Positions 1,584-20,827 of a stretch of DNA of 31,675 bases are shown piece by piece (positions within the stretch are counted from its first letter, which is position 1; each line of letters starts with the position of its first letter). The notes beneath the pieces are model-generated. The model was not told where the DNA came from and made no database searches. It saw only the letters and a list, made by a program, of their open reading frames with translations. This DNA comes from a virus. The stretch spans positions 1 through 31,675 of IMG/VR virus record IMGVR_UViG_3300020420_000043; one strand, written 5' to 3'. The translations under genes and the position numbers were made by a program.

Positions 1584-2564
1584 ATGATAACAAGTAAGCA
1601 TACAATACTAGGACAGGATCTCAGCTCATCTGAGATCTCTGATATTGTCCTTGGAGAAACAGCATTTAGTAGCTGTCATAAAGTTTATGATGCACATCTT
1701 ATGGCAGTTAAGAATGTAGAGGTTATGTCTGAAAGAAGAATGACCAATGCTATGATCAGAGGATTATTCCTGGAAAGATCTGTAGCTGATTGGTTTTATT
1801 ATCTGCTGTGTGAGGAGATCAAGGATACTCCTATCGTCATTGAGATGTTGGATCCACAGGATGCATCCAGGCCACAGGATTATAATCCGGACCTGGCTAA
1901 GTATGGACTAGGTGCTAGTGTAGATAGGATCCTGGTATGTAGTGGGGATGTTACATTGTCTGTTGCCGGATTTACTTTCCATCTAAAGAAAGGAAAAAAT
2001 ATCCTGGAGATCAAGACAGACTACTACCACACCGGCAAGTGTAAACCGGAATGGCAGATCCAGGTACAGCATCAGATGATCTGCACCGGTACTCAATGTG
2101 GGATCATTGTGTGTAAGGATCAGACCGGCAAGTTAAACATCTATCAATGCACCATCAATGAGAAGATGTGCAAGTTGATAATGGATAAGGCAGAGGACTT
2201 TTGGAAAAGGATAGATGAGGAGGATCCATATCCACCTATCATTAAACAGGAGCACCAGGGCCTCAGATCTAAAACCTTGGATGAAACTATACTAAAGAAA
2301 ACTAATCAAGATGTAGTGCAGCTCACAGAGGATTACCTGGTAGCCTCTGTTGAGGAGAGGAAGTGGAAGAAAACTAAGGACAAGTTAAAGGAAGATCTAT
2401 CAGATGTTCTTGATAGCTTGGACCTGGATGTCCTTACAGTACCAGGACAATACCAAATAAAATCTCATTACTCTGAGGTAGAAAAATATACTATTGAAAA
2501 GAAACCTACCGGAGTGATGAGGGAACAACATTCATTTACAGTAAAGGAGATAAGAGATGAATAA
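1584..2564 (+). CDS. YqaJ-like (lambda Exo-type) recombination exonuclease
   Basis: The 326-residue protein has the PD-(D/E)XK nuclease arrangement of the YqaJ viral recombinase family: an N-terminal helix with RGLFLERSVADWFY (59-72), GASVDRIL with Asp114, LEIKT with Glu142 and Lys144, and the EWQIQVQHQM helix (156-165) that normally carries the conserved glutamines. Such enzymes resect double-stranded ends 5' to 3' and hand the 3' strand to an annealing protein. The next gene is exactly that partner (RecT) and overlaps by 8 bases, so the pair forms a two-component recombination system like Exo/Beta or RecE/RecT. The start follows AGGAGG. Confidence 0.87.
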   Translation: MITSKHTILGQDLSSSEISDIVLGETAFSSCHKVYDAHLMAVKNVEVMSERRMTNAMIRGLFLERSVADWFYYLLCEEIKDTPIVIEMLDPQDASRPQDYNPDLAKYGLGASVDRILVCSGDVTLSVAGFTFHLKKGKNILEIKTDYYHTGKCKPEWQIQVQHQMICTGTQCGIIVCKDQTGKLNIYQCTINEKMCKLIMDKAEDFWKRIDEEDPYPPIIKQEHQGLRSKTLDETILKKTNQDVVQLTEDYLVASVEERKWKKTKDKLKEDLSDVLDSLDLDVLTVPGQYQIKSHYSEVEKYTIEKKPTGVMREQHSFTVKEIRDE

Positions 2565-3510
2565 TAAATTGATCACAACATCAGCTCAATCCTTGGATAC
2601 TTATATGCAGTTAGCAGATAAACTATCCAAGGCAGAGCTCGTGCCTCAACAATACAGAGGTAAACCTAATAACATATTGGTAGCTATCCAATGGGGAATG
2701 GAGCTAGGCCTCACACCAATGAGAGCTCTGCAATCTATCGCTATCATAAATGGTAAGGCATCTATCTATGGAGATGAATTGCTAGGCCTGGTTAAATCTC
2801 ATCCGGCCTTCAGAGGATGTGAAGAAAAGGTAGAAGATAATGTAGCTACCTGTACTATCAAGAGAGATGTAGCCGGAGAGATAGAAGTAACTACCAGGAC
2901 TTTCAGTAAACAGGATGCAGTTACAGGTAAGCTATGGAATAAACCTGGACCCTGGCAGCAGTATCCTCAAGTAATGTTAAAGCATAGAGCAAGAGGCTTT
3001 GCAATTCGTGATGCATTTCCGGATGCCATCAAGGGGATAATCACATATGAGGAACTAAGAGATTATCCCCAAGAGGCACAGGGAGGAAATATTAAAGTAG
3101 CTGTAACACCTAGTGATGCAGAGGATCTAGATGCATTGGCTAACAAACTTGAGGCTCCTGTTCTTGAGGACCAATCCTCAGAGAAACTCACACAGCAATT
3201 ATTCATACCAGGAAAGGAAAGCAAAACCTTTGATAGTGAACACTCCTGGTGTGATGAGTTTGCTCAAATCCTAATTAGTGTAACACAGGTATCTCGTTGG
3301 ACCTATGAAACAAAGAAGGAAAAAGTAGACACATTTATAAAAGCAAATAGCAATGTTCTTGCAAACTTACAGGATCAAGATCTAAAAAAAGAAATGACAG
3401 ATAAGATCCATAAGTTTTATGAGTACATAGAAGAAGAGGATGTGCACACACAGGAGAGCCTCAATGCTATGGCTGATGAGATGGATAGTAGAGGAGAGCC
3501 GGATGTCTAA
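2557..3510 (+). CDS. recT: RecT-family single-strand annealing protein
   Basis: The 317 residues match the RecT family over the first 180 positions: an N-terminal helical segment, the region LVAIQWGMELGLTPMRALQS (about 41-60), INGKASIYGD, and a basic WQQYPQVMLKHRARGFAIRD segment (134-153) typical of the DNA-binding core. The C-terminal third (about 185-317) is acidic and poorly conserved, as usual for a host- or SSB-contacting tail. It overlaps the exonuclease gene by 8 bases, pointing to translational coupling and joint action in recombination-dependent replication or concatemer formation. Confidence 0.9.
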   Translation: MNNKLITTSAQSLDTYMQLADKLSKAELVPQQYRGKPNNILVAIQWGMELGLTPMRALQSIAIINGKASIYGDELLGLVKSHPAFRGCEEKVEDNVATCTIKRDVAGEIEVTTRTFSKQDAVTGKLWNKPGPWQQYPQVMLKHRARGFAIRDAFPDAIKGIITYEELRDYPQEAQGGNIKVAVTPSDAEDLDALANKLEAPVLEDQSSEKLTQQLFIPGKESKTFDSEHSWCDEFAQILISVTQVSRWTYETKKEKVDTFIKANSNVLANLQDQDLKKEMTDKIHKFYEYIEEEDVHTQESLNAMADEMDSRGEPDV

Positions 3511-5362: not shown

Positions 5363-5689
5363 TTACTTTCCGTTCCTACTCATATAAGCAGAGCTCCCCA
5401 TATAGAAACCTACAATGGAAGATCCACTAATGAATAGAAGATCGCTGACAGAACTGAGCTCCTTCAATCTCTCAAGATCTATTATTGGTGTTAGTAATAT
5501 CGTTGCGTATAATCCCATAAATATTAATGTGTATGTAGCCATTCTTCTTTGAGCTAATAGTTTCCTGGCTTTATCTTCATACTCCTTTATCTCTTTTGCT
5601 AATTTGATCTCCTGGTCCGTGATCTCTCCATCTTGATTGAGATCAAAATTTTCGTACCTGGATCCCTTCTGTAATTTCTTCTGTGCCAT
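5363..5689 (-). CDS. EF-hand-containing small membrane protein, holin-like
   Basis: The 108-residue protein begins MAQKKLQKGSRYENFD and carries one canonical EF-hand loop at residues 16-27: Asp16, Asn18, Asp20, Glu22, Thr24 and Glu27 occupy the calcium-coordinating positions. A charged helix (28-48) leads into two hydrophobic segments (about 51-67 and 84-98). Proteins with this exact plan occur in marine phages near holins and endolysins. It could be a second holin, an antiholin or a calcium-sensing partner. The ATG overlaps the upstream stop by one base. Confidence 0.72.
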   Translation of the reverse strand: MAQKKLQKGSRYENFDLNQDGEITDQEIKLAKEIKEYEDKARKLLAQRRMATYTLIFMGLYATILLTPIIDLERLKELSSVSDLLFISGSSIVGFYMGSSAYMSRNGK

Positions 5690-6150
5690 CAGAGTATTTT
5701 CATCCCTTTAAAAACTACTAATAAAACAATAACGAATATTGTACAGCCTCCAACAACTGCACCTAATATTGTTAGTGTGTTCATAAACTCTTCTTTTGCT
5801 ACCTCTCTTTCCTTTTCTGCCTGTTGTCTTTTCTTTCTTGCCTCAACCTGGAACCGGACCCAATCACTATGAAGGCCTGGCCTCCCCAGGTAAATCATCA
5901 TTCTCTTGAGCTCTTCCTCTTTCTCTTTGATTTCTTCCAGGGCAAAGAACTCATCAAGATCTGTTTCATCCTTGCCGGTAAACTTACTGAATATAGAATT
6001 TTTCTTTTTATCTTTTTGTTTACGCAGATCATCTGCTGCGTGTGTAAACTGAGTAATACTTTTTGCAACTGAACTGAGCTCCCTACCATTTTCAATTGCC
6101 TTCTTTATTGTTTGGTAGGCCCCGTTGCATATAGCTATATATTCTAACAA
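5689..6150 (-). CDS. coiled-coil protein with C-terminal membrane anchor
   Basis: The 153 residues start MLEYIAICNGAYQTIKKAIE. A long charged helical region (about 75-125), with EEIKEKEEELKRMM and a basic/acidic run, suggests a coiled coil. One hydrophobic span (about 127-148, LTILGAVVGGCTIFVIVLLV) lies near the C-terminus. The segment YLGRPGLHSDWVRFQ at 87-101 recurs in hypothetical proteins of marine phages. The topology could suit a spanin-like or lysis accessory role, but no lipobox is present and the anchor is C-terminal, so function is unknown. Confidence 0.7.
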   Translation of the reverse strand: MLEYIAICNGAYQTIKKAIENGRELSSVAKSITQFTHAADDLRKQKDKKKNSIFSKFTGKDETDLDEFFALEEIKEKEEELKRMMIYLGRPGLHSDWVRFQVEARKKRQQAEKEREVAKEEFMNTLTILGAVVGGCTIFVIVLLVVFKGMKIL

Positions 6151-6163
6151 TCATAACTCCAGG

Positions 6164-6343
6164 TTATCCTAAACCTTTAAGCAGAAGATTACCTAACATA
6201 ACGATAATCGTACCGGCAGATCCCAGGATTATTAATTCTAATCTTTTTACTCTTCCTAATATCTCTGCCCAACGAATGGCACAGATCTCCTCGTGCTTAT
6301 CAATCCTTGCTTGTAACTCTGCATTAGTCATTTTCTTAGTCAT
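6164..6343 (-). CDS. small coiled-coil plus one-TM protein (XhlA-like topology)
   Basis: Starting at the ATG at 6343, which overlaps the upstream small gene by 8 bases, the product is 59 residues. It has a charged helix (ELQARIDKHEEICAIRWAEI) followed by one hydrophobic helix (about 34-55, LIILGSAGTIIVMLGNLLL). This helix-then-TM layout resembles XhlA/holin-associated proteins, without a specific sequence signature. An ATG at 6331 is an equally possible start. A membrane-lysis accessory role is inferred from position and topology only. Confidence 0.6.
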   Translation of the reverse strand: MTKKMTNAELQARIDKHEEICAIRWAEILGRVKRLELIILGSAGTIIVMLGNLLLKGLG

Positions 6344-6497
6344 CCTTCTTTGGTCTACCTCTCTTTTTGCCTGGGGCATTTGAGCTTTCCTCGTGCTCTA
6401 CCCCAGGCTCTCTGTCCTTGCCGGACTTCTTTGGAGCTGCTTTACTCTTCCAATCTTTGGGAGCTAAGTGTGGATTTAAATCATATAAGTGTGGCAT
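6336..6497 (-). CDS. small protein with C-terminal AT-hook
   Basis: A 53-residue reading frame starts at ATG 6497 behind a strong RBS (AGGAGG then AACA). It begins MPHLYDLNPHLAPKDW and ends in KKRGRPKKDD. The core RGRP flanked by lysines is the classic AT-hook that binds the minor groove of AT-rich DNA. The middle is charged and probably disordered. The 3' end overlaps the next gene by 8 bases. The strong RBS, tight packing and compositional bias argue that it is real. Its role is unknown: DNA-binding, or simply a basic peptide in the late operon. Confidence 0.6.
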   Translation of the reverse strand: MPHLYDLNPHLAPKDWKSKAAPKKSGKDREPGVEHEESSNAPGKKRGRPKKDD

Positions 6498-6505
6498 TGT
6501 TCCTC

Positions 6506-6892
6506 CTAGCCAATGTTAAACTCTGCATCCCACCAATCATCAACCTCCTTAACCATAGCTGCTATATCAGTAGCCATAGCTTTTGATGTGTCGCTGTCCG
6601 GTGTTCTTGCCATTTTTAATTCTTGCTCTACAGAATATTTATCTCTGATCGCTTTAGTTTTTTCTCCATCCATCTTTTCTTTTATATCAGCTCTAGCTAA
6701 CAATTCTGTTTTCTGTGTGGATGTTCCTTTAGTAAGAGTAAGACTAAGATCTTTATTAAGATCCAGGTATACTGTTCTGTCTGCTGTTTCCATAACAACA
6801 TAATCTGTATACCACTTGATACTGCCTGTAGTTTCTACAGGATGATTGATCACTCTCAGATCAATATTCAGTTTATATAATGTTCTTGCCAT
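6506..6892 (-). CDS. hypothetical protein downstream of receptor-binding protein
   Basis: This 128-residue soluble-looking protein starts MARTLYKLNIDLRVINHPVE. The first 55 residues look beta-rich (KWYTDYVVMETADRTVYLDL), and the rest forms charged helices ending in EVDDWWDAEFNIG. It follows the RCC1-like protein by 13 bases in the same operon. A tail-fibre chaperone or small fibre-associated subunit would fit that position, but no family is recognised and this is only inference from context. Confidence 0.68.
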   Translation of the reverse strand: MARTLYKLNIDLRVINHPVETTGSIKWYTDYVVMETADRTVYLDLNKDLSLTLTKGTSTQKTELLARADIKEKMDGEKTKAIRDKYSVEQELKMARTPDSDTSKAMATDIAAMVKEVDDWWDAEFNIG

Positions 6893-6905
6893 ATACCTTT
6901 CCTCC

Positions 6906-8918
6906 TTAACCTGGTGTTAGCTTTACCCATTGGGCAGATCCATTTGCGTGATTGTTACTAAAGATACCATAGTTGTTATCGTATCCCATTGCCCATAAAC
7001 TACCGGCACTATCTCTAATTATTGATACATAATATCCGGAGTAGTGATGACCAAAACAGAACATATCCTCTACAGTAGTATCAGTTAATCCTACATACTG
7101 ACCTGTGCCACTAGCATTTTGATGTGACCAGGGCGAAGGATAAGGAACTGCACTAGTATAAGTAGCAGCAGTATGATTGTTTAATACACCTCTTGCCTCA
7201 TAACCAAAGTACCAATGCCTACCATTTGTATCTATCATATAAACAGCCGGAGCTTGATATCCGGAGGTCATCTTAGGATACATCTTAGCTATAGCTGTTC
7301 TTGGGAATTGCAGCTCAGTAGTTGATATAGATCCGTCAGTAGAGCTGTTGATAGTATTGTAAACATTAGATCCAAATACATCTGTTATAGGCTGATCCCA
7401 GGATGTTTGTCCTGTTGTATTTCCTCTACCTAATGTTCCGTATCCATTGTATCCGGCATTATATATGGTGTTGTTTGGATTACCTGGTGTACCACCAAAT
7501 GCGTGAACAGATGATGTTCCCCCATATCCTGTAACCATTACAGAACTAAAGGTTAGAGATCCACCAATGTCTGTCCAAGCTGATCTGTTAGTGGTTGATC
7601 CATCGCCTAGCTGTCCATTTCCGTTGTAGCCTATACCATATAGATCTCCATCTGATTGCAATGCATAGACAGGCCCATTGACATTACCATTATAGTAATA
7701 AGTAGTTTGATTTAAAATTTGTACTACATTTTGTACACCGGTAATTATAGAGAATGTTGTTTTAGCAGATCCACCTTGGTTGCCTCCGTCATTTGCTCCT
7801 GTGCTATGTACTGCACCATTAGTATCAATCAAATGACAAGATCTATAACCGGCAGAAATAGAAAGAACAGATCCTACTGTAGATATAAGTTGAGGTTTAG
7901 TAACATTAGATGTAGATCCGGATCCAAGAGCTCCATTCAATCCGGCCCCCATAACAAACAATCTATTGTTCTCATCAATTAGATACCATCTCTGAGCTCC
8001 ACCCATACCCTGGTATCCACCAATGTTAGGCATAGCCACACCAATGATGCGAGATTGTAAACTATTCCAGGTAGCACCTACACCAACATAAGGATTTTTA
8101 ACCCATTGATGTCTGTCTACAGTAGAGTTTATTCCTAATGCACCTTCATTGTTCTGACCATTAACAAAGATGTTACCTTTGTTTGTAAGAAACAATCCGG
8201 TGTTATACATATACCAAATTCTTACAGGATGCTCATCTGCTGCCATACCACCAAATTCAGTATTGATGGACATAACAACTCTACGACTATGGTTATTGTA
8301 TCCGGCCCCACTATATGATCCACCTAATCCACTTTCTCCAATAGAGTATCCGGTGTGAACAATTTCATAATTGGTATTGATGTACATAAACATTGGAGCT
8401 GATGTTGTTGGTAGTGTTCTATCCCTTTTAACAGGACCACAGGCTCCATTGGGCATACCATCATAAGGTATATATCCTGTGCTATAGTTAGCTAACCAGG
8501 GATACTTGCCATCACTAGCATATGTACTTGAGCTGTCCATATCTGCTACCGGTGGTATGTTAGATCCCAGGATCTTATAACCTTCATATCCACTTTGAGC
8601 TGCAAAACTTAATCCGGATGTTGATGCAGTTAATACTTCTCCGGCATTACCTTTAGCTAATCTGATTTGACTAGATCCATCGTGAGTTAAAACATCTCCG
8701 GCTGTTGTCAGTACAGTTGAACCTTCAGCCATTATGCCCCAATGCGTAGTATTTGTTGTAGATGGATTACCGGCATTGGTTCCGGTCTTACTTGTTGCAT
8801 TTACATATATCCAAGAGCTGCCACCAAAAGAAACAACATCATCTTTCTCGTATGTTGTTGAGGTTGCAAAGGCCCCCTTAAATGTAAACTTTAATTTTCC
8901 TATGTCTAATGTTGCCAC
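6906..8918 (-). CDS. RCC1-like beta-propeller tail/receptor-binding protein
   Basis: The 670-residue protein has a short N-terminal part (about 1-65) with TYEKDDVVSFGGSSWIYVNA and a closing W60, reminiscent of small carbohydrate-binding modules used as attachment domains. From about 242 to 667 I can align seven RCC1-type repeats with the hallmark pattern (small residue) x G x N x x G x LG: near 248-262, 319-332, 367-381, 424-438, 487-498, 567-579 and 640-652. Seven repeats are the number that closes an RCC1 propeller. It is encoded just after the T7-type fibre gene, so it most likely forms the distal, host-recognising part of the tail. Confidence 0.82.
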   Translation of the reverse strand: MATLDIGKLKFTFKGAFATSTTYEKDDVVSFGGSSWIYVNATSKTGTNAGNPSTTNTTHWGIMAEGSTVLTTAGDVLTHDGSSQIRLAKGNAGEVLTASTSGLSFAAQSGYEGYKILGSNIPPVADMDSSSTYASDGKYPWLANYSTGYIPYDGMPNGACGPVKRDRTLPTTSAPMFMYINTNYEIVHTGYSIGESGLGGSYSGAGYNNHSRRVVMSINTEFGGMAADEHPVRIWYMYNTGLFLTNKGNIFVNGQNNEGALGINSTVDRHQWVKNPYVGVGATWNSLQSRIIGVAMPNIGGYQGMGGAQRWYLIDENNRLFVMGAGLNGALGSGSTSNVTKPQLISTVGSVLSISAGYRSCHLIDTNGAVHSTGANDGGNQGGSAKTTFSIITGVQNVVQILNQTTYYYNGNVNGPVYALQSDGDLYGIGYNGNGQLGDGSTTNRSAWTDIGGSLTFSSVMVTGYGGTSSVHAFGGTPGNPNNTIYNAGYNGYGTLGRGNTTGQTSWDQPITDVFGSNVYNTINSSTDGSISTTELQFPRTAIAKMYPKMTSGYQAPAVYMIDTNGRHWYFGYEARGVLNNHTAATYTSAVPYPSPWSHQNASGTGQYVGLTDTTVEDMFCFGHHYSGYYVSIIRDSAGSLWAMGYDNNYGIFSNNHANGSAQWVKLTPG

Positions 8919-8930
8919 CTGGTCCTCCTT

Positions 8931-9881
8931 CTATGGTAATGTGACTTGCAAGTGTCCATTATTATCTATGGCAAAGGTTACATTACCACTCGCAATTAAA
9001 TAGTTATCGTCATAATCTGAGATCGTTAATGCCTCAGATCCTCCGGATGTAGTGCTATCTACTTTTAAAACTCCTGTTGCACTATCCTTATACAAACCAA
9101 AAAATCTAGATCCTGTAGCAGCTCCTACTTGTGTAGTAATAGCTTGAGATACTCTTAAAGGTGTCATACCTTTAACATTGTTTGTGCCTGTTTGTGCCTC
9201 AACCTGGGATGCTATATCTGAAAATACACCATCATTACCGGCAGCTCCTTGAGATCCCTGGGGAATAGTAAATGTAAAATCTACATTACCTGTGCCGGTG
9301 TTAAAATTAGCTGTTGCTGATGCTGATGATCCGGCAGCTCCTGTATTAGTAGCAGACACAGATGCTGAATTAATTGATGAACTAACTGCCTCCGGATTAC
9401 CTGTAGAAGAATTAAATCCTAATACTTTGCCGGACCTGGTAGTTTTATTTGGTAAAGTAAAATCACTAGAGCTTGGTTCATCAACAGGAGCTTTTATAGA
9501 TCTAATGATCCTCTCCTCTTGATCTCCAATCTGCATAGTGATTGTATCAAAATCTCCCTCCAGGGCAGATGCTGTTACATTGCCTCCGGATGAATAAATA
9601 CTAGCTCTAGATATAGGAACATCAGAAAGTATAACTACTGTATCGCTGCTAGATGGAGCTCCAACAAAACGAACAGTACCTGTTCCGTCTGCGTTTAGTC
9701 CGGCAGCTCCTGTAGATGTAACAATAGAATAGTCAGTAGTTTCTTGTTTAAGTGTACTACCCAGGTATACCTTAATATCAGAGGTATTATTTACCTGGAA
9801 TGAAAAATTAAAATCTAATAGGCTGTTGTTACCTACAGCAGTAACTCTTCTAACCTGGTCATTAACACTAAATGTTGCCAT
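8931..9881 (-). CDS. tail fibre protein with T7 gp17-type N-terminal domain
   Basis: The 316-residue protein opens with the T7 tail-fibre N-terminal module (about 1-130): VRRVTAVGNNSLLDFNFSF, DIKVYLG, an extended beta region with GTVRFVGAP, then ALEGDFDTITMQIGDQEERI, which normally attaches the trimer to the tail. Low-complexity Ser/Ala/Thr repeats follow (about 165-205), then one short collagen-like GSQGAAGNDG and a beta-rich C-terminal part. It is much shorter than T7 gp17 (553 residues), implying that receptor recognition is passed to the following RCC1-like protein. Confidence 0.85.
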   Translation of the reverse strand: MATFSVNDQVRRVTAVGNNSLLDFNFSFQVNNTSDIKVYLGSTLKQETTDYSIVTSTGAAGLNADGTGTVRFVGAPSSSDTVVILSDVPISRASIYSSGGNVTASALEGDFDTITMQIGDQEERIIRSIKAPVDEPSSSDFTLPNKTTRSGKVLGFNSSTGNPEAVSSSINSASVSATNTGAAGSSASATANFNTGTGNVDFTFTIPQGSQGAAGNDGVFSDIASQVEAQTGTNNVKGMTPLRVSQAITTQVGAATGSRFFGLYKDSATGVLKVDSTTSGGSEALTISDYDDNYLIASGNVTFAIDNNGHLQVTLP

Positions 9882-9903
9882 ATCTATACCTTTTGTTATT
9901 CCA

Positions 9904-9934
9904 AATATACCATACCTAGATACCTAATCCACAA
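9904..9934 (-). promoter_or_regulatory. possible promoter upstream of tail-fibre genes
   Basis: On the minus strand the 86-base gap contains TGGTATATT (extended -10 TGnTATATT, 9912-9904) and a -35-like TTGTGG (9934-9929) with a 19-base spacer. This is longer than ideal, so the extended -10 would have to carry recognition. It would serve the tail fibre, RCC1-like and lysis genes. Evidence is consensus matching only. Confidence 0.3.
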
Positions 9935-9967
9935 CAGTTAACAGCAATCCCCAATATTCACAGGTAA

Positions 9968-12900
9968 TTAGTTATTACCACCAAACAATTCATTCATATT
10001 TTTGATGTTTGCGTTTTTAACCTCCTCCGGATTTGGATTTGTTACTGTAGTTGGTTCTTTTAAATTGTTTTCTTTGTATGTATCTATTTGCAATTCTATT
10101 GCTGTGAGCTCCGGATATTCATAGAATAATAATTTTTTTGCATATTTAAGATATTCAGAGTGCACACTATCTAACATCCTAGCTTTATGGCCTCTTGTTG
10201 CAGCTATTCTATTAGAAGGATTAGTAGGATCCGGCATTGTCAAATACTCATCACTCTTAATAAGTAAATTAAATTTATTGATGATAGGCATAGGTATGCC
10301 ACCGGCCCCTGGTAGAGCTCCTTTAATAAATGCATCCTTACTAAAAGTAGATCTTTCCGGATAGTTATACAGCTCTAAGAATTTATCTAGTTGCTCATTG
10401 TTAAGTAAAATACCTTTACCTAAAACTCTGTGAGATAATCTAGGAAAACCATAACCAATAACTTCTAACTCTTTATTGAGTTCTGTTTTACCAGGTAGAT
10501 TTATAATCTTGATTGGTGACCAATAATTCCAACCGGATCCCTCTGTTTGTTTTATCTCTTCATACCATCTGTTTTTTAATGTGGGCAAAGTAGATGAACA
10601 ACCAACCTGTCTAGAACAATGTTTGTTAAGAGCTCCATACCAGGCTCTTTCTATACCTTGTCCTACCATATAATTAGATGTGTATTGATCTCCTGGTAAT
10701 GTGTTTGATGCAAGAGGATGTTGCACTCTTTCTATGTTACCTTGTATGGCCGGTGGTGTATAAACACCAAATGCCTTGATGTGTTCTGTTACAGTAAGAC
10801 CGGCAGAGGCTACCTGTTTAGTTAGCAGCTCTCCTATTCTTGCTATCAACTGATCATTACTTTCATATGGAGCTTGGATAACATCTCCTAGATCTCCTAA
10901 AAATTGCATCATAGGTAGAGCTGTACCTACATATTTCATTGAGGCAAACGCACCACCAATCATTATATCTAATATATCATCCGGACTATCCATATACTTA
11001 ACAACATCTTTGGCATCAGCCATCATACCAAGAACACCGGATATAGGATCATACCTGGCATAGCTAATCCAATCCCAGGATCCATCTTCTTTTTGTACAC
11101 CAATAGAATAAGGTTTATGATGTTGTAACCAGGTTTCTCTTTTCTTAGGATCCGTAGGTCCATAGCCTGTTATTGTTACATCATCATTATTTACACCGGC
11201 TGATATTCCCATACCAATAGCAAATATACTTGTTAATCCTGTAGCTTTTGTTATCGCCTCTTTTCTTTCTCTAGGATTTCCATTAAGTATTTTATCTCTT
11301 ACACTAGGCATAATAAAAGCAAATGGTCCGGATCTTTCTACAATTCGTCTGACGATCTGCGTAGGAGTTTTGTAAAATGGTATCCATATCTTAGCTATAG
11401 GATGATTGATAAATTTACCTATCTGTGAAAATGCCTCCGGTAATTCATCCTGGAAAGTTATCATCCTGGCAAAATCACTAGCCTCATTATAAGTATCTGC
11501 TGAATTTAAAGTATGAACAAATGATGCCTGGCCTTCAGTTTTTGCATAGTCCATTGCCTCTTCTCTATTAGCAAATGTTTTTGTATTTCCATCCTTATCC
11601 TGGTAACTAAACTTTTTTGGATCTGCATCATATCCATCCATAATACTAGTAATCGTATCTCGTTTACTTCTAAATGCCAGGGCCTCCATTTCCATACCTC
11701 TAGAGGTAGCCTTGAAAAATTCATCTATAGCTAACATTGGCCTATATCCGGCCATCCTCATCATTACACCAAAGAAATCTAATGCATAGGCAGTACCTGT
11801 TTCTGCACCGGATTTAAGATCTGCAAAACCTTTTTTCTGTAAACCAAATCCTGTACCGGATATGGATCTAGAATTTACATCTAGTTTAGATACACTATCA
11901 GACATTGATTTTTCATTAATCAATGCGTAGGTCATACCTTTAATAGCCTGGGGAAAGTATTTAGCCATAGCCTTATACATTATAAGACCTTCCCTAACCT
12001 CTCCGGATAACATTCTTTCAAATGGTACAAGGCTCATAAAGGCCATTTGACCGGCTGCGTTAAATGAGTGTGTAGTTATAGAAGATAATAGTGATGTTTG
12101 ATAGAGCTCTACTAATGCATTAGATCCCATACCTAGCTTACCCCTTAACCATCCCTGGGCAAACTTACTCCTGGCTCCGTTTCTAGGTAGCTTTAAAAAT
12201 CTATCAACTAATAATTTTACATTAGCCTCTCCACCATTAGCCTCTATGTATTTATGAACATTGGCATCATTAATATTAAATGTACCTTTGCCACCTATCA
12301 TAGTTGCAACAACATCTTCTCCTGGTTTAATACCGGATGCGTGTTGATCTACAACATTACCAAGACTATTGATATGTGAATTACTAGGAGCTGCTACTAT
12401 CTTTTGTGATACCATAGCTCTACCTAGATCTGCTGTGTTACCGGCAAGATTTAAAGTAGCATATGCATAAAGACCAATTGATTGTTGTAGCTTGGCAAGA
12501 TCTACTATTGATCCACTTTTCTCATATTTTTTAATTTGACGATATATAAGGATCTCAAAAGATAGAGCTGTCTTTCTAGCTGCTATGAGCTCTGCATAAC
12601 TAAATGGTCTATCTCCAGGTTTCCTGGTTAACATATTTACTATAGATTGTGTGGCATTTATTTTGTTAGCCTCGTTGAGCATTTCCTCAAAGGTAACTCC
12701 ACCTTTTCTTATAAATTTCTTTTGACCATTTACCTCTTCTACACCAACTAATTTACTAGGCTCTACTCTGATCTTCTTACCATCAACAGTAGCATCCTTA
12801 TACTCATCATAGATCTTTTTCATTAACCTTTTTAAGGTTAGATCTAGATCTCCTGTTTCTTTATATCCTGTTTCAAAGTTACCCAGGTTGAGTAAACTTA

Positions 12901-13345
12901 AATCTATATCTTTAAAATCCGGATCTTCTTTAACAACAAAGTTAACTAGATCCTCTACCTCTTCTGCTTTAAGAGGCCTAATAAATATTGCACCACTTTC
13001 ATCACTAACAGCTAAATCTTCTGTTTGGATCTGTCCGGCCTTTTCGCCTTTTGGTTTGTTTACATTAGCTGTTGTGTCTTTTGTACTTTCTTTACTTAAA
13101 AATTCATTAACACCACCAACAGCATCAGATACTACTTTGGATCCTTTTCTATATAAATTATTAAGTGAGGCTAGTTGTACCTCGCCACCAGGATGTTCCT
13201 CTGTTGGCCTGTACTCAGTACCATCATCTTGCAGCTCTGAACTATCTTGAATATTGGAAGGAGTTATCTTGGGATCTGTTGGTGCAATAACAGAATTATC
13301 AATTGTTTCTTCTTCAATAAATGAGGGATCCTTTGGTATAGACAT
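9968..13345 (-). CDS. large internal virion protein (T7 gp16-position)
   Basis: At 1125 residues this is the largest protein and sits where T7 places gp16, the largest ejection protein. The N-terminal 110 residues are acidic and disordered-looking. The body is predominantly helical. A segment with MAGYRPMLAIDEFFKATSRG (531-550) and another with FYKTPTQIVRRIVERSGPFA (657-676) resemble large polyvalent virion proteins of other podoviruses. A hydrophobic helix lies at about 702-718, followed by TGYGPTDPKKRETWLQHHKP (726-745). I see no clear transglycosylase motif. Likely role: part of the trans-envelope ejection conduit. The start shares a base with the upstream stop (TAATG). Confidence 0.7.
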   Translation of the reverse strand: MSIPKDPSFIEEETIDNSVIAPTDPKITPSNIQDSSELQDDGTEYRPTEEHPGGEVQLASLNNLYRKGSKVVSDAVGGVNEFLSKESTKDTTANVNKPKGEKAGQIQTEDLAVSDESGAIFIRPLKAEEVEDLVNFVVKEDPDFKDIDLSLLNLGNFETGYKETGDLDLTLKRLMKKIYDEYKDATVDGKKIRVEPSKLVGVEEVNGQKKFIRKGGVTFEEMLNEANKINATQSIVNMLTRKPGDRPFSYAELIAARKTALSFEILIYRQIKKYEKSGSIVDLAKLQQSIGLYAYATLNLAGNTADLGRAMVSQKIVAAPSNSHINSLGNVVDQHASGIKPGEDVVATMIGGKGTFNINDANVHKYIEANGGEANVKLLVDRFLKLPRNGARSKFAQGWLRGKLGMGSNALVELYQTSLLSSITTHSFNAAGQMAFMSLVPFERMLSGEVREGLIMYKAMAKYFPQAIKGMTYALINEKSMSDSVSKLDVNSRSISGTGFGLQKKGFADLKSGAETGTAYALDFFGVMMRMAGYRPMLAIDEFFKATSRGMEMEALAFRSKRDTITSIMDGYDADPKKFSYQDKDGNTKTFANREEAMDYAKTEGQASFVHTLNSADTYNEASDFARMITFQDELPEAFSQIGKFINHPIAKIWIPFYKTPTQIVRRIVERSGPFAFIMPSVRDKILNGNPRERKEAITKATGLTSIFAIGMGISAGVNNDDVTITGYGPTDPKKRETWLQHHKPYSIGVQKEDGSWDWISYARYDPISGVLGMMADAKDVVKYMDSPDDILDIMIGGAFASMKYVGTALPMMQFLGDLGDVIQAPYESNDQLIARIGELLTKQVASAGLTVTEHIKAFGVYTPPAIQGNIERVQHPLASNTLPGDQYTSNYMVGQGIERAWYGALNKHCSRQVGCSSTLPTLKNRWYEEIKQTEGSGWNYWSPIKIINLPGKTELNKELEVIGYGFPRLSHRVLGKGILLNNEQLDKFLELYNYPERSTFSKDAFIKGALPGAGGIPMPIINKFNLLIKSDEYLTMPDPTNPSNRIAATRGHKARMLDSVHSEYLKYAKKLLFYEYPELTAIELQIDTYKENNLKEPTTVTNPNPEEVKNANIKNMNELFGGNN

Positions 13346-16008
13346 TAGCTACCTCCCTCTGTTGTAGTGTTTACTCCTCCGGCTGTTCCTCCGGATCCGG
13401 ATCGCTGTTCATTGGTGTTTGTTCCTTCTCCAGGCCTCGTAGTGCCTGTAGAAATGTTTCCCTTGTCTTGTTGTTCTCTTGCGAGTTGGTCAAGTTTTTG
13501 TCTGTCAATTCCTGGTTGCTCATACCATAGCCCTTTCTCTTTAGGTTTACTAACCATAAAGTCTTTAGGTATTATACCACTTTTTGGTTTTCTTACAATG
13601 TCTAAGAAATTCTTAAAACCTGTAGGAGTAAAGGTTGCTTTAGATCCATCAGATAATGGGAAATCTATAACAGTTTCTCCATCTCCAACTTTCCTATAAG
13701 TAGCTCCACCTTCTGTTATGGTTCTTTTCATTTCTTTTACTTCAAGATTTTTAGTAGATCCCTCTGTAAAGTATTTTAGTGTGCTATGATCAACAACTTG
13801 ATCGCCTTCTATAACCCAATTCTCCCAATGCCATCTACCTATAGTGCCATCCTCCGGCCTACCAAGTTTTGTGTACACCTCTTTAATTTTATCTCTAAGA
13901 CCATTCTCTAATGCCTCAGTATATAAAAGACCTCTTGGTCCTCTTAGCACACCAACGATACCACTATCTATTTTAGTGCCTTCTTTTCTATATCCATCAT
14001 AAATATTAAAACCATCAAATCTACCATCATCCCATAAGTGTCTACCCTGGATACGATCTAGCACCAGGACATCATCCTTACCACCTACCAATAATGTAAA
14101 GCTAACTACCTTGTTATCTATACCGGCTCTATCAGTAAGGTTCATAAACTCTCTTCTTACTTTGGCAGCCGGAATATTAGGATCTGACATTAGTTTATGT
14201 AGATATTGTATAGTTGTAAGATTTGTTCCTGGTACTTTGTTAGATAATCTTAATAACATTTTACCGGCAGCATTTACATTATTTGTAGATCGTCTGCCTG
14301 GAGATCCCATTGGTATAGCAGAACTTATAGTTTTTTCCCAGGTTACTAAATCAGCATCAGTAAATTTACCATCTACTGCTTTCTGTATTAGAGGACCGGC
14401 CTTATCTATAATATCAATAAAGGCTCCCTCTTGTTGATATGGTCCTTGTCCTCTTGATAATATTCCCCAAACAAAAAGATCTGCTGTCATTTTGGGATCA
14501 GCTTTACCACTATCGTATAAGCCTTTTATGTCTTTAACAAACTTATATCCTCTATCTACACCTTCTTTAAGATCCGGTGTTAGACCTGTCCGGATCTTCT
14601 CAACCATCTTGTCCGGATTGTTAAAATACTCTAATGCCTTCATTGGAGGATATGGTAAATACTCTCCACCTACAGCCTCGTTTTGGAATTTGTTCCAGGC
14701 AACCGGAGAGCTCATAGCATCTTTATTATTCTCCAATGCTAAATCCATATTAGTAAAATTCTTTTCTTTGTTGGTAGGTATAAAACCTTGCGTTACCGGA
14801 AACATAGGTTTCTTTTCTTTTGCATCATTTTTAATTGATAGCTCCGGTGGTAGTTGGTTGTAATACTTACCTCCCTTTGGAGCTGTCTTATAATCAATAT
14901 CTAGATAATTTTCTACAACTTCACTTGTTGTTGGTGTTGTGTTCGTAGTAGGTTCAACCTTTGTTGTTGTTTCCTGTGGAACATTCTCCGGAACAAAATC
15001 TATTTCAGTTTGTGATTGTGTGTCTATGTCCGGTCTTTTTAATGCATTGCCTAATTTATCAAAACCTTTTTTAACTACCGGAGCTGCAACCTCTAATCCT
15101 TTAGTTAATGTATTTCCAAATATTGTGCCTGTTGCAAATGCTCCGGAGTTTTGTAAATAGTTAAACTCATCCTGTAGATCTGCATCCATTTTAACTTTCT
15201 GTCTGATACCATCTTCCAGGGCAAAGTATGATCCACTTTCTACACCTACCAGGGCAGCCATTTTAGATGTACTACCGGCAACAATCTTTTTAAATAAAGT
15301 TTGTTTAATAAGTTTCTTGGTTGCTTGTTTACCTACAAACTTAGGTATTAGTGCTAATCCTAATGTTGTTAGGCCAACATAGTTACTTACATCTTGAGCT
15401 GTGTAGTATAATCCATTTTTGAAATTTCTTAGTAGCACACCATCTCTATCTGCTGTTTCAAGCAAATAGTACATAGCTTTAGATACATCTATTGGTGCAT
15501 CACTCATCTTAGCTGCATCAATACTCATATAGGATATGTTGTTAAGGAAACTGCCCATCCAATCTCTACCCCACTCTGCATATTCTTTATCTGATTTTGG
15601 GCCCTGGCCTCCCTCTGTTTCCGGATCCTGGTTACCTATCATATTCTTAGCAAGTGTTATGTCTGATGTTTCCAGGTAGTGATACATAATCTTTGATGCA
15701 GTTATCCAAGCCGGATCTGTAATCTGTGATCCCTCCTTCATTTTATTTACTTGCTCTAAATGTTGTGCATCAAGATAGTTCTGTGGAAATCCGTGTATCC
15801 TTATCCTACGAATATCATAAGTAATAGCCTCCGGAGATCCTACTTCTATGCCTTCCGGATAGCCTGTTTCTAATGGTAGAAAACCAGGCTCTGCAATTGA
15901 TTTACCTGTTAGTTTATCAACATAGATAACTTGTTCTCCACTACTATCAGCAATGTGGTTCTCTTGATATATTTTAGAAAACTCATCATCTAAATTACTA
16001 TTAGTCAT
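13345..16008 (-). CDS. internal virion protein with DNA-glycosylase-like (HhH-GPD) segment
   Basis: An 887-residue protein in the ejection-protein block. Residues 1-320 are mixed helical with hydrophobic stretches (210-225, 250-262). Residues 320-400 are a Thr/Pro-rich linker. About 500-670 is a compact helical region ending in GIDNKVVSFTLLVGGKDDVL then VLDRIQGRHLW. Lys633 and Asp651 are 18 residues apart, close to the 19 between catalytic Lys249 and Asp268 of human OGG1, and the surrounding hydrophobic pattern is similar. The C-terminal 70 residues are Gly/Thr-rich and disordered. Virion position is inferred from gene order; the glycosylase resemblance is by eye and could reflect an inactive relative. 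Confidence 0.62.
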   Translation of the reverse strand: MTNSNLDDEFSKIYQENHIADSSGEQVIYVDKLTGKSIAEPGFLPLETGYPEGIEVGSPEAITYDIRRIRIHGFPQNYLDAQHLEQVNKMKEGSQITDPAWITASKIMYHYLETSDITLAKNMIGNQDPETEGGQGPKSDKEYAEWGRDWMGSFLNNISYMSIDAAKMSDAPIDVSKAMYYLLETADRDGVLLRNFKNGLYYTAQDVSNYVGLTTLGLALIPKFVGKQATKKLIKQTLFKKIVAGSTSKMAALVGVESGSYFALEDGIRQKVKMDADLQDEFNYLQNSGAFATGTIFGNTLTKGLEVAAPVVKKGFDKLGNALKRPDIDTQSQTEIDFVPENVPQETTTKVEPTTNTTPTTSEVVENYLDIDYKTAPKGGKYYNQLPPELSIKNDAKEKKPMFPVTQGFIPTNKEKNFTNMDLALENNKDAMSSPVAWNKFQNEAVGGEYLPYPPMKALEYFNNPDKMVEKIRTGLTPDLKEGVDRGYKFVKDIKGLYDSGKADPKMTADLFVWGILSRGQGPYQQEGAFIDIIDKAGPLIQKAVDGKFTDADLVTWEKTISSAIPMGSPGRRSTNNVNAAGKMLLRLSNKVPGTNLTTIQYLHKLMSDPNIPAAKVRREFMNLTDRAGIDNKVVSFTLLVGGKDDVLVLDRIQGRHLWDDGRFDGFNIYDGYRKEGTKIDSGIVGVLRGPRGLLYTEALENGLRDKIKEVYTKLGRPEDGTIGRWHWENWVIEGDQVVDHSTLKYFTEGSTKNLEVKEMKRTITEGGATYRKVGDGETVIDFPLSDGSKATFTPTGFKNFLDIVRKPKSGIIPKDFMVSKPKEKGLWYEQPGIDRQKLDQLAREQQDKGNISTGTTRPGEGTNTNEQRSGSGGTAGGVNTTTEGGS

Positions 16009-16016
16009 AACATTCC

Positions 16017-18026
16017 TTATCTAAATAATTCTTCATATCCGGTAACCGGTTTTTCTACTCCCTCCGGAGATTTGTTGTAATCTATTATCTTCTCTTTAAA
16101 ATCAATGAGCTCTTCACACCTATCAGCAAACTCCGGTTTGCCACTACATTGTTCAATAAGTCTTAGTAGTTGTGATCCGTTAGCTGCGAACTTACCACTA
16201 TTCTGCATAATAATTAAATCAGCATATTTACTATTAACAGCTCCTGTTAACTCCTCTCTTATAAAATCGTTTAGATTTGTTTCATTATATTTGTAAGGAT
16301 CAAAAGGTTTATCAGCAGTAGCATTTAACTTTGCATCAATCATTAATCCTTTATATACAGTAAACATTTTGTAGTTTGTTTCTTTTAGATTACTGCCATT
16401 AAACAAAGTAACATCCGGTATGTTCATTTTTGTTTTAGCATAATCTAACGCAGCTTTTAGATCTTGATCCTGGATTGTTCCATAGATTTTAGTAAATTTT
16501 TGTAAATCATCAAAACTTAACATCCCATTAGCAAAATCTTTTGCTACATCATATGTAGTATATTTAGGATTGTCTGCGTTACTGTCGTTGTGATATTTTA
16601 CAGAAAAATCTATCATCTCCTTTGTAACTCTAAAGTTAACACCGGCACGAATTTTTTCTATGATATCCAGGTTTTTAAAGTATTGGCTATCCGGACTACT
16701 ATCTAGCTGAAGGATCTCTGCGTTTAATGATGTAAGTAATGCAACAACAATATCTTTATTATCACTATTAGGTAACAGTTGTGACATAGTTAAACCAAAT
16801 TGCATTTGTGTTCTGTCTATATCTATATTTCTCATCTTTACAGCTTGTTCATCTCTCTCAATAATGTACTTGTCATTATCAATATTAAATTCTCTCATTT
16901 TTCCCAGGGCATTTAGCATCTGAGTTTCATCCATAGTAATTAATGCGTTCATTACTTTTTTAGGTAACCTGTTTAATATTTCTCTGTCAGCCTCACTACT
17001 AGCACTATATGTACCTTTGTCCTTATCTTTGAGTTTGATAAGAACACCAACAGCAGCTTGTGTATTCTTGTACAGATCATCCGGTTTTTTATTTGTAAGT
17101 AATGCTGAATTAAGGACAGTTAAACTTGAGCTATATATATTCTCATTAAACTCTTTACGCAGACCATCTATATTAGATACATCTACCTCGTTCTGTATTG
17201 CTAACTCTAAAAACTCTTGAAAGACAAGATCATAATATTTCTTAGATCTAAAATGTTTGGCTGCAACCTCTCCATTTGATTTAATCTCCGGTGGAATATT
17301 TGGATCTTGTAGTATATCTCCACCACCTTCATACATAATATTTTTATCTAGATTGCTAAAAAATATTTCTTTAGATGCTGCAAACAAAAGTTTTTTTTGT
17401 TTTTTTGTATTGGCAATCTCAGTATCCATAAAGGCATTGAGCTGCGTGTAACCAAACAAACCTAGATCTGCATTTAAAGATTTAGCTAACCTTACATCTT
17501 GTTCTGAGATACTATCTGTAAGGCCTTCAACTATAGCCTCTACCTGTGGTTTTACTTCTGCATACTTTTTACCATTAACCTCTGCTGTTTGTAGCAGCTC
17601 CAGGATCTTCTTTTTACCAAAGACCTTCATAGTATCTAGTGATTGTGCTAAGAAATATTCATTAGCTGTTGTGCCAAATATACTGTAGCTATCCCCAGGA
17701 CCACTTAGTGTTTTCTTTTTTCGTTCAGCTACTGCCTGGTTATCATCTGTTCTTTGATCCTCCGGTATAGCTCTAGCTTTATCAATCTCTTTATTCCAAT
17801 TGTAGATTGTTTCTAGCTGTTCCATATCCGGAGCTTGTTCTACTCCATATACTTTAGCTCTTTCTTTTGCCACTCCCTGGAGGCTCTCAAAAACAAACTT
17901 GTTCATTGAGGCTAGATCTGATGCGATCTGCTGTTGATATCTGACTATGCTTTTTTCAGCAGCAAAACTAGGTGTAGGTATTTCTAACCTGGTAATCCTT
18001 CGTCTATATCGTGGGAGCTCTGCCAT
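16017..18026 (-). CDS. internal virion protein (T7 gp15-position)
   Basis: The 669-residue protein starts MAELPRYRRRITRLEIPTPS, with a basic N-terminus, and is almost entirely predicted helical, with charged repeats and no membrane span. In T7 the order is gp14, gp15, gp16 after the tail genes, and this protein is second in the equivalent series here. It is similar in size to T7 gp15 (747 residues). Such proteins form the tubular ejectosome together with the large internal protein. No catalytic motif is seen. The assignment rests on order, size and composition. Confidence 0.65.
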   Translation of the reverse strand: MAELPRYRRRITRLEIPTPSFAAEKSIVRYQQQIASDLASMNKFVFESLQGVAKERAKVYGVEQAPDMEQLETIYNWNKEIDKARAIPEDQRTDDNQAVAERKKKTLSGPGDSYSIFGTTANEYFLAQSLDTMKVFGKKKILELLQTAEVNGKKYAEVKPQVEAIVEGLTDSISEQDVRLAKSLNADLGLFGYTQLNAFMDTEIANTKKQKKLLFAASKEIFFSNLDKNIMYEGGGDILQDPNIPPEIKSNGEVAAKHFRSKKYYDLVFQEFLELAIQNEVDVSNIDGLRKEFNENIYSSSLTVLNSALLTNKKPDDLYKNTQAAVGVLIKLKDKDKGTYSASSEADREILNRLPKKVMNALITMDETQMLNALGKMREFNIDNDKYIIERDEQAVKMRNIDIDRTQMQFGLTMSQLLPNSDNKDIVVALLTSLNAEILQLDSSPDSQYFKNLDIIEKIRAGVNFRVTKEMIDFSVKYHNDSNADNPKYTTYDVAKDFANGMLSFDDLQKFTKIYGTIQDQDLKAALDYAKTKMNIPDVTLFNGSNLKETNYKMFTVYKGLMIDAKLNATADKPFDPYKYNETNLNDFIREELTGAVNSKYADLIIMQNSGKFAANGSQLLRLIEQCSGKPEFADRCEELIDFKEKIIDYNKSPEGVEKPVTGYEELFR

Positions 18027-18032
18027 AAACTC

Positions 18033-18755
18033 TTACACCTTTTTAAATTCTATGTTGAGTTTGTCGTAAAAGACTTTCATTAGATCTTCAGATTTATCTA
18101 CTGCATCCGGAAATCTTCGTTCTACCTCTTGAGCTATAACTCCCTGGTAACGATCCGGATCTCCTTTGTAATTAAACTCATAGATGTTTAATCCTGTTTC
18201 CGGATCTATCTTTACAAACTCTATGTTTTCTTTAGCTGCAATATCACTTGTTTTGCTAAATGTAGGAAATGCTTTAGGAAATGCACTTGGTCCATATGTC
18301 ATACCGGCAGTAGCTACCTTGGTAAGAACACCGGCAGTAGCTCTTTTGTTAGCTGCCTTAATAGTATTCTCTGCTGCCACATTATAACTTGCCTGTTCAT
18401 ATCTACCCATTTGCTCTGCAATGGTTGAGTTATCCCTGGCTATAGTAAAATCATTAACACCTTCTCTAAGATTATATCCCATAAGAATATCTCCGGTATC
18501 TCCGGTAGATAATGGATCAAAGTTTCCGGCCCCACCTTTTGCATTAATCAATGCCATATTCATATTTATTTGTTTTAAAACTTGGATACCTTCTTCTTTA
18601 AAATTTAATGCATCCTTTCTTCCTTGCACAACAGCAGCCTGGCCTTGAGCTCTAAGCAAATCAGCTTGAGCCTTGCCCTCATCTTTGATTGCTTGGTATT
18701 CTAAAAATGTACCACCAATTGCTGCACCAATTAATGCTATCTCTACTCCACTCAT
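18033..18755 (-). CDS. internal virion protein (gp14-position) with C-terminal S74-like domain
   Basis: The 240-residue protein has an N-terminal hydrophobic segment (IALIGAAIGGTFLEYQAI) and Ala-rich helices (25-150), as in T7 gp14-type ejection proteins. Residues 170-240 match the Peptidase_S74 intramolecular chaperone: SDIAAKENI with Ser170 and Lys175 (family pattern SDxxLKxxI), then YEFNYK, YQGVIAQEVERRFPDAV (203-219) and a closing KVFYDKL. In fibres this domain drives trimer folding and cuts itself off before the Ser. Here it sits on an ejection protein. The gene lies between the tail tube B gene and the gp15-like gene. Confidence 0.75.
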   Translation of the reverse strand: MSGVEIALIGAAIGGTFLEYQAIKDEGKAQADLLRAQGQAAVVQGRKDALNFKEEGIQVLKQINMNMALINAKGGAGNFDPLSTGDTGDILMGYNLREGVNDFTIARDNSTIAEQMGRYEQASYNVAAENTIKAANKRATAGVLTKVATAGMTYGPSAFPKAFPTFSKTSDIAAKENIEFVKIDPETGLNIYEFNYKGDPDRYQGVIAQEVERRFPDAVDKSEDLMKVFYDKLNIEFKKV

Positions 18756-18763
18756 ACTACCTC

Positions 18764-20827
18764 CTACTGACCTACAGACACTTTGTAATCCAAACTAAGT
18801 ACAGTTAAGAATACAGGTTGGTCCTGGCTAATTGTTATCTTTGCCTCTCGTTCAAAACCAAGAAAGCCTGGTGTTTTCTTTACTCCGGTAAATGCAGTAA
18901 CACCTCCAACTCCGGATACCGGTAATGTCTTTAGAGGGATCTGCCTTCCATTAATAGTTATGTTTTGAGTTTTATATAGAACAGGAGATACCTCTAAAAT
19001 TCTTTTCTTTTGTCCTTGCACTATTCCGGATGGTAATCTTGTTTCAACAGGATTGGTTGTTACATTTATAGTAAATGGTAAACCGGCCTCAACATAATTG
19101 GTTGGAACATCTCCTACTGTAATGTTACCACCGGCTACTGATACCTGGGGATCTATAATATCATCTCTGATTATATCTACTGTCTTGCCATTTAAATGTG
19201 AGTATCCGGAATATGTTGTACCGGAAAAGCCGGATACTATTTGAGATCCACTATCTGTAGTAAAATCATCATCAAACACCTCTACAAAATATTTATCAGA
19301 TCCACCTATGTTTCTTTTAACAACAACGAATATGTCATCTAGATCTACTGATACATCAGTAAAGATACCATCCGTAACCAATAAAGATGGTGCTACAATG
19401 TTCTGTCCTTTGTTTAGCATATAGGCAGCTATACCACCTACAGAGCTCGTAGAGGCAGCTCTATAGCCGGAGCTGTCTGTTCCATTAAGGACCATAAGTA
19501 AATCGCCCTCAGTAGTATCTGTGGCCCTTCTAAGAGCTAATCTCTTTGGATCTACAATTAGATGTGATGCCAGGAGAGATATGTTGTTTGCCACATAAGA
19601 TAATTCAACATCAGAGAACAGCAGCTCTCTAATACTTTTACCTTGTCGCTGAATAAATAGTGTTCCACCTTCAGCAGCCTGGGGCCTTATGTTTGGTTTA
19701 GCTCCTCTTTTGGTTGCTGATTTAATAACAATGTTACTTGGTGTAATAGGATCTAGATCTCCCTGGGGCACAAAAAACTCTGAGCCGGTGGTAAACACCT
19801 GGAGATCTCTTCCGGATCTGAGAGCTGTAATTGAGTTAACTTGGTCAGTAGCCAAAGTAACTTTCAATGCATCATCATCTAAACCTTCTGATGCTTTGAA
19901 ATTAAAAAAATCATTTACCTTAGATCCAAATAGAGTTGATGGAAGGGATGCAGATCCACCAAAATATAATCTACCTTCGTGGAATGTAGCTGTCTTAGTC
20001 CAACCTCTACTATCACTCCAGGCATCCTCATAACCTCTTTCAATAATATATGTATTACTTGCTACTGCTGATGTATCAAAAAATGGAACCTCAGTTATTC
20101 CTTTAACCTCAGTACCGGATATAAACTGAGTTATTCTTAATCTACCAAATCCGTCATCTACCTCAATGAATTGATCTATATCTGCACTTGTAAAGATACT
20201 AGATCCGGCTGTTATTGTTACTGTACCATCTACTTTATCCGGTGTAATTGTTGTAGCCGGTCTAGTTGTTACAATAGTAAATGCGTGTTTAGGTATTGTT
20301 AAGGATCCGGCTAGGGATGTAGCTGACCAATCTTGATCTGTTGCACCACGCACCAAACTAAATGGTCTAAAATTTTCGTGTGTACAAATAACTGTATCTG
20401 CACTTTGCGTATAGTATAATTTATTAATATCAAAATCTGTTGTGTTGTATAATGTGCCTACACCATAATCTAGATAATCAACTCCTTGTCCATTAATGTT
20501 GGTAATTAGTTGTTGGTTTTTGTAGATCCTAAATCTAATTTTTGCATTAGGCTGATTGGTTATAGTAGCTGATGCAACCACCATAAAATTAGATGATGTA
20601 CTAAATTCAAATGGTATCAGCATATGTCCATTCTGTGGATTGTCTGCTGTAATATCCTGGATAAACTTTAGTCCTGGTCTACGACTAAAACCACCTTGTG
20701 GCTCAAAGATAACATTAGTAGCCTCTGATACACTTGAGTAGTATTGCTGTAGATCTACTCTACCTCTAAGTAAAGGATCTATCTCTCCAACAGTAAATGA
20801 TGCCTGGTATTGTTGTACTCTACTCAT
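18764..20827 (-). CDS. tail tubular protein B (T7 gp12-like nozzle)
   Basis: The 687-residue protein begins with the family signature of T7-like nozzle proteins: QYQASFTVGEIDPLLRGRVD, then YYSSVSEATNVIFEPQGGFSRRPG (about 30-53), followed by a large beta-rich body with a TTRP.TTIT strand region and a segment EDAWSDSRGWTKTATFHEGR near 270 that is conserved in gp12 relatives. It forms the tail tip below the gp11-like ring. Size is close to T7 gp12 (794 residues). It overlaps the tail tubular A gene by 4 bases. Confidence 0.88.
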   Translation of the reverse strand: MSRVQQYQASFTVGEIDPLLRGRVDLQQYYSSVSEATNVIFEPQGGFSRRPGLKFIQDITADNPQNGHMLIPFEFSTSSNFMVVASATITNQPNAKIRFRIYKNQQLITNINGQGVDYLDYGVGTLYNTTDFDINKLYYTQSADTVICTHENFRPFSLVRGATDQDWSATSLAGSLTIPKHAFTIVTTRPATTITPDKVDGTVTITAGSSIFTSADIDQFIEVDDGFGRLRITQFISGTEVKGITEVPFFDTSAVASNTYIIERGYEDAWSDSRGWTKTATFHEGRLYFGGSASLPSTLFGSKVNDFFNFKASEGLDDDALKVTLATDQVNSITALRSGRDLQVFTTGSEFFVPQGDLDPITPSNIVIKSATKRGAKPNIRPQAAEGGTLFIQRQGKSIRELLFSDVELSYVANNISLLASHLIVDPKRLALRRATDTTEGDLLMVLNGTDSSGYRAASTSSVGGIAAYMLNKGQNIVAPSLLVTDGIFTDVSVDLDDIFVVVKRNIGGSDKYFVEVFDDDFTTDSGSQIVSGFSGTTYSGYSHLNGKTVDIIRDDIIDPQVSVAGGNITVGDVPTNYVEAGLPFTINVTTNPVETRLPSGIVQGQKKRILEVSPVLYKTQNITINGRQIPLKTLPVSGVGGVTAFTGVKKTPGFLGFEREAKITISQDQPVFLTVLSLDYKVSVGQ

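Follow-up and report, generated by a model that had tools for sequence, protein, structure and literature searches.

An OGG2-like HhH-GPD domain predicted in a putative DNA-ejection protein of a podovirus

We examined the 31,675 nucleotides of IMG/VR virus record IMGVR_UViG_3300020420_000043 (positions 1 to 31,675; the window hereafter) and infer that its 887-aa product P0001 is, with a probability of roughly 0.6, one half of a split gp16-like ejection protein, with an OGG2-like HhH-GPD glycosylase as its cargo. The predicted fold of this domain, the conservation of its catalytic pair, and its genomic and fusion context were established computationally.

The window is a podovirus fragment, from a marine phage, with genes for TerL, portal, capsid and tail tubular proteins A and B; gp14-like, gp15-like, P0001, P0002 and fibre genes follow the tail genes, in an order that relatives keep (Table 1). 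The first-pass annotation had given positions 13345-16008 for an ejected virion protein without naming a strand. The frame is confined to the minus strand, where an ATG lies at 16008 and the stop ends at 13345, the plus strand of this interval being full of stops. Residues 101-283 of P0001 matched the N-terminus (residues 65-222) of LUZ100 gp47, annotated as 'internal virion D, similar to T7 gp16' (blastp E 9e-19), and the family HMM of P0002 matched residues 792-1008 of the same protein (E 6.6e-11). Because they match both ends of gp47, P0001 and P0002 look like a split T7-gp16-like protein to which a glycosylase-like domain has been added; several relatives share the gp16-like N-terminus. 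Gene order, the gp16-like halves and the large-polyvalent-protein contexts of relatives thus agree with the earlier description of P0001 as an ejected protein, which is probably carried in the virion and injected with the phage DNA. This context supports packaging and delivery, short of proof.

The nearest cultured relative by TerL (57.5%) is the OM43 phage MEP301, which contains a 161-aa protein in the P0001 slot, without the glycosylase-like domain. The lack of the domain in the same slot fits an accessory cargo. Between MEP301 gp25 and the N-termini of the P0001 family, blastp gave no significant match (E 0.16).

Other parts of the window were also assigned. The 240-aa protein in the gp14 position ends in a segment like the C-termini of DNA-ejection proteins and tail fibres, unlike typical gp14. 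The gene at 6906-8918 on the minus strand is predicted to encode a tail fibre whose beta-propeller repeats are of the RCC1 type, and serine recombinase, RecE-like exonuclease and RecT-like genes occupy 739-1428 and 1584-3510 on the plus strand, in a layout like that of MEP301.

Table 1. Features of P0001 and neighbouring genes, in positions of the window.
Feature	Position	Strand	Evidence
P0001, 887 aa: gp16-like N-terminal segment and OGG2-like domain	13345..16008	-	Open reading frame; IMG/VR relatives
P0001 residues 101-283, like the LUZ100 gp47 N-terminus	15160..15708	-	tblastn E 7e-13; blastp E 9e-19
P0001 residues 376-845, conserved phage domain common to all relatives	13474..14883	-	AlphaFold2 pLDDT 91.2
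P0001 residues 455-741, HhH-GPD/OGG2-like core	13786..14646	-	AlphaFold2 pLDDT 93.4; VIA Z 18.0 (3n0u), 17.9 (3knt)
Lys633, predicted Schiff-base/recognition lysine (OGG1 Lys249, MjOgg Lys129)	14110..14112	-	Invariant, 43/43; hmmsearch and hhalign alignment
Asp651, predicted catalytic aspartate (OGG1 Asp268, MjOgg Asp147)	14056..14058	-	Invariant, 43/43; in register with OGG2
His727, putatively at the MjOgg Asp194 / OGG1 Gln315 position (motif spacing)	13828..13830	-	Invariant, 43/43
Trp731, putatively at the base-stacking MjOgg Trp198 / OGG1 Phe319 position (motif spacing)	13816..13818	-	Invariant, 43/43
His741, opposite OGG2 residue 207 (C-terminal lysine)	13786..13788	-	End of VIA range; conserved in 42/43
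P0002, 1125 aa, C-terminal half of gp16-like internal virion protein	9968..13345	-	PHROG internal virion protein E 7.5e-12
669-aa gp15-like protein	16017..18026	-	Gene position; weak match to MEP301 gp26
240-aa protein, gp14 position	18033..18755	-	Gene order
Tail nozzle / tail tubular protein B	18764..20827	-	PHROG tail protein E 2.9e-109

Pfam searches of P0001 matched no domain, and single-protein searches of Pfam, PHROGs, PADLOC and PDB sequences returned nothing relevant to the glycosylase-like domain. Relatives were recovered at 18 IMG/VR loci by a close search and at 71 by an alignment search, the domain being present in at least 60 IMG/VR contigs; among GTDB genomes, a single contig contained it. 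BFVD held two uncharacterised homologues from uncultured phages. When four family members were compared by tblastn with 50,697 phage records, no homologue of the domain appeared and the sole match was the N-terminus of LUZ100; no cultured phage record in this collection encodes the domain. Similarity among relatives is mostly limited to residues ~376-845, with N-termini that differ in length and sequence. The conserved domain, which spans 376-845, is larger than the 500-680 of the first-pass annotation. In L005, L007 and L010, a further conserved domain (GGGFAIKPDGDIVGVFNP...) forms the C-terminal ~190 aa past the glycosylase domain; no Pfam model matches that of L005.

Residues 629-659 of P0001 read GIDNKVVSFTLLVGGKDDVLVLDRIQGRHLW, and K633 and D651 lie exactly 18 apart, as had been claimed. 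We rejected this spacing alone as an argument for a glycosylase: it is at chance level, with six K-x17-D occurrences in P0001 and 24 in the 4,133 aa of virion proteins of the window. Since the spacing is common by chance, the evidence must come from conservation and fold. An alignment of 43 phage sequences, 30-88% identical to P0001, contains D631, N632, K633, V634, S636, F637, G643, D651 and R652 in all members, as well as E701, R725, H727, W728, W731 and Q737. The GIDNK hairpin is nearly invariant. Conservation of the motif in this alignment, unlike its spacing, exceeds chance. The dN/dS ratio in the HhH region was 0.16 between P0001 and its 89% relative L001, and the region evolves under constraint. 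Both residues that characterise the HhH-GPD superfamily, the catalytic Asp after the hairpin and the Lys of bifunctional members, have their counterparts in D651 and K633 (43/43).

Profile comparisons placed the same two residues opposite those of known enzymes, with low scores. The best match of the family HMM among 177,635 PDB sequences was MjOgg (E 0.54), with K and D in register, and hhalign to an OGG2 alignment also brought the catalytic residues into register (E 0.003, probability 10.6%). The reverse search with an OGG2 HMM was not significant (active-site matches had E values of about 0.6-3), none of the 43 family members matched a glycosylase Pfam model, and a search of the virus record with PF22175 (Ogg-HhH) was empty. 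In these searches, sequence similarity to known glycosylases falls below the usual limits of significance.

Structure prediction gave two confident models. With the family alignment, AlphaFold2 produced a 468-residue model (pLDDT 91.2, pTM 0.91), and VIA-align against the PDB ranked OGG2 entries first (3n0u Z 16.4, 3knt 16.1, 3fhg 15.9), with OGG1 at about 11. When the core only was modelled (455-746; pLDDT 93.4), the four OGG2 entries listed by VIA scored Z 18.0, 17.9, 17.5 and 16.8 over 205-209 residues. OGG1 did not exceed 11.7 and trailed by about 5 Z; helical folds inflate Z, and the OGG2 values exceed the level at which VIA warns of a common helical arrangement. With 3n0u and 3knt, 205-206 residues of the core (455-741) were aligned, MjOgg being covered over 205 of its 207. 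Foldseek returned only weak EndoIII/AGOG matches for the 468-residue model, with AGOG at rank 17, which was resolved by folding the core alone: OGG2 then filled the first three ranks (E 5-6e-3, probability 1.00). The helix-hairpin-helix glycosylase fold anticipated from the sequence was thus present in both models, the top VIA matches being HhH-GPD glycosylases. Its kinship, previously sought in OGG1 and archaeal glycosylases of the AGOG type, shifts to OGG2 as best structural match. Overall, the predicted fold of the domain resembles that of the OGG2-type 8-oxoguanine DNA glycosylases of archaea and bacteria.

In the AlphaFold2 model, K633 is residue 2 of the helix that follows the hairpin and D651 stands directly before the next helix, N-terminal to model helix 284-291; this predicted placement matches what is expected of an HhH-GPD active site. 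According to the chain alignments, the 18-residue spacing is that of K129 and D147 in MjOgg, versus 19 in OGG1; the 3knt chain has Gln at the Lys position. The proposed likeness to glycosylase active sites holds for the Lys/Asp pair, with OGG2, not OGG1 or AGOG, as the nearest family.

The predicted base pocket differs in part from that of OGG2. In the known enzymes, MjOgg Asp194 / OGG1 Gln315 and Trp198 / Phe319 take part in base reading and stacking, and the strictly conserved C-terminal lysine of OGG2 reads N7-H of 8-oxoG through its carboxylate (PMC3397491). This carboxylate is absent in P0001: the alignments with all four OGG2 entries end at model residue 287 and chain residue 207, where the P0001 chain goes on, so that position 207 is aligned with the internal His741. 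By motif spacing, E701 would be the OGG2 Glu of Y-x3-E. The conserved OGG2 His at D+2 is replaced by Ile/Val in the phage family. The catalytic pair and the stacking Trp thus appear to be kept, with two OGG2 base-reading features altered. Given the apparent changes from Asp194 to His727 and from Lys207 to an internal His741, the target base is uncertain. The main-chain carbonyl of H741 could play the role of Gly42 in OGG1, and 8-oxoG is therefore neither shown nor excluded as substrate.

The altered base-reading residues would also suit an active N-glycosylase that acts on something other than a DNA lesion, be it a modified nucleoside or nucleotide, a tRNA base, a nucleobase conjugate (as does DUF2419/QNG1 in queuine salvage) or a component of 7-deazaguanine-based immunity that it would counteract. 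We consider this unlikely. The alignment with QNG1/DUF2419 structures covers more of the model, its N-terminal helices included (248 residues), and OGG2-like genes adjoin or lie near homologues of QueC (7-cyano-7-deazaguanine synthase) on bacterial plasmids; the Z of the QNG1/DUF2419 match, however, is 9.8 versus 16-18 for OGG2, and the nearly invariant GIDNK hairpin is not something that a nucleotide hydrolase should require. Similarly improbable is a catalytically dead HhH module that binds DNA and aids genome packaging, guidance or anchoring during ejection. Its location in a structural/ejection protein and the weak sequence link to active enzymes are consistent with such a role, but binding alone would not require that K633, D651, H727, W728 and W731 be invariant in 43 diverse sequences. 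Invariance of the whole active site also disfavours an unrelated all-helical phage structural domain with a chance likeness to HhH-GPD, which we regard as very improbable: the Foldseek E of 5e-3 is modest and helical folds inflate Z, yet all four OGG2 entries listed rank first, about 5 Z above OGG1 and with full-length alignment, and independent sequence methods bring the two catalytic residues into register.

In most contexts examined, the domain is fused to, or lies beside, ejection or structural genes. Distant phages contain it within giant proteins of ~2,600-3,300 aa, which in two cases are encoded downstream of a transglycosylase or peptidase gene. LPD38 was found at the C-terminal end of the two scanned giants whose scans reached an LPD38 match, and LPD23 is present in one family member. 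The association of disparate domains with LPD or InPase domains, typical of polyvalent proteins, is thus seen in relatives, P0001 itself being without a Pfam domain. The only GTDB contig, from an Opitutae MAG (L086), encodes at 5649-10253 a protein of ~1,530 aa that combines the glycosylase-like domain with InPase and a methyltransferase; the contig is probably viral, because this gene lies between those for TerL and a portal-like protein.

Compared with OGG2 (MjOgg 3KNT/3FHF, SsOgg 3FHG, Tm1821 3N0U; PF22175), the phage domain has the same predicted fold over the whole OGG2 length and shares the 18-residue Lys/Asp spacing and, as inferred from motif spacing, the stacking Trp and the Glu of the following helix (E701). 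Unlike OGG2, it forms part of predicted virion proteins that range from about 690 to 3,300 aa, contains a longer loop after the Asp helix, extra N-terminal helices and a C-terminal beta segment, has His727 at the presumed position of Asp194 and the internal His741 at that of the C-terminal Lys207, and is missed by PF22175 and other Pfam models. OGG1 and AGOG share the HhH-GPD fold; OGG1 scores lower in the structural comparison, has a Lys/Asp spacing of 19 and carries an additional beta domain at its N-terminus. The N-glycosylase/DNA lyase of phiCbK-type Caulobacter phages (AFO71701) is likewise phage-encoded and OGG2-like but, unlike P0001, is the product of a small stand-alone gene (about 190 aa) outside the virion proteins. 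The N-terminal part of P0001 and the C-terminal part of P0002 correspond to the ends of LUZ100 gp47, a T7 gp16-like protein; unlike gp16 and gp47, the protein is here divided between two genes, with the glycosylase-like domain ending the first. Relatives of P0001 share LPD38, LPD23 and InPase with the polyvalent proteins, which are giant, multidomain and predicted to be injected; the main text of the paper describing them makes no mention of a glycosylase (Iyer et al. 2017, PMC5512222). Brig1, a host-encoded antiviral DNA glycosylase that defends against modified phage DNA (PMC11078745), shares the use of a glycosylase in phage-host conflict, although here the enzyme is encoded by the phage. 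Stand-alone phage OGG2-like genes (phiCbK) and host glycosylases in defence (PMC11078745) are thus already known. Our literature search for virion-borne DNA glycosylases found none described; matches to HhH-GPD, phage and virion were set aside as plant work or the listing of an ordinary phage gene.

OGG2-like genes were also observed on plasmids of Agrobacterium/Rhizobium, between TIR-domain and QueC genes (L090 385-1080, L091 520-1224 and L093 520-1224), followed in two cases by a second TIR gene. This cluster looks like an unlisted defence operon; PADLOC gave no match for the OGG2-like proteins of L090 and L091. On a Citrobacter plasmid (L094 415-1260), the OGG2-like gene adjoins a DNA adenine methylase gene, with a QueC gene nearby.

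Catalysis, substrate, ejection and biological purpose are what we infer for an OGG2-like cargo. Since both catalytic residues are intact, the phage may equip the infected cell with a base-excision enzyme of phage origin. P0001 and its partner P0002 would be packaged together and leave the particle through the tail; DNA would be bound by the domain via the HhH hairpin, and a modified purine would be flipped into the pocket and stacked by Trp731. Asp651 would then cleave the N-glycosidic bond, with Lys633 as recognition or Schiff-base residue and a possible AP-lyase step. As infection begins, the enzyme would most likely serve to excise an oxidised or otherwise modified purine, either from the incoming phage genome or from host or competitor DNA. 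Rather doubtful, in our view, is the bolder proposal that such OGG2-derived, virion-delivered enzymes are widespread in marine phages and attack a specific modified purine on entry, not serving 8-oxoG repair; their targets would be marks on host DNA, deazaguanine marks linked to defence or the genomes of competitors, mirroring Brig1-type defence.

The OGG2-like reading gives a domain that otherwise lacks annotation a function that can be tested, and MEP301-like phages without it offer a natural contrast between protection of incoming DNA and action on the host. If it is correct, the particles of some marine phages contain a base-excision enzyme, and DNA glycosylases would join the types of enzyme found among ejected and polyvalent proteins.
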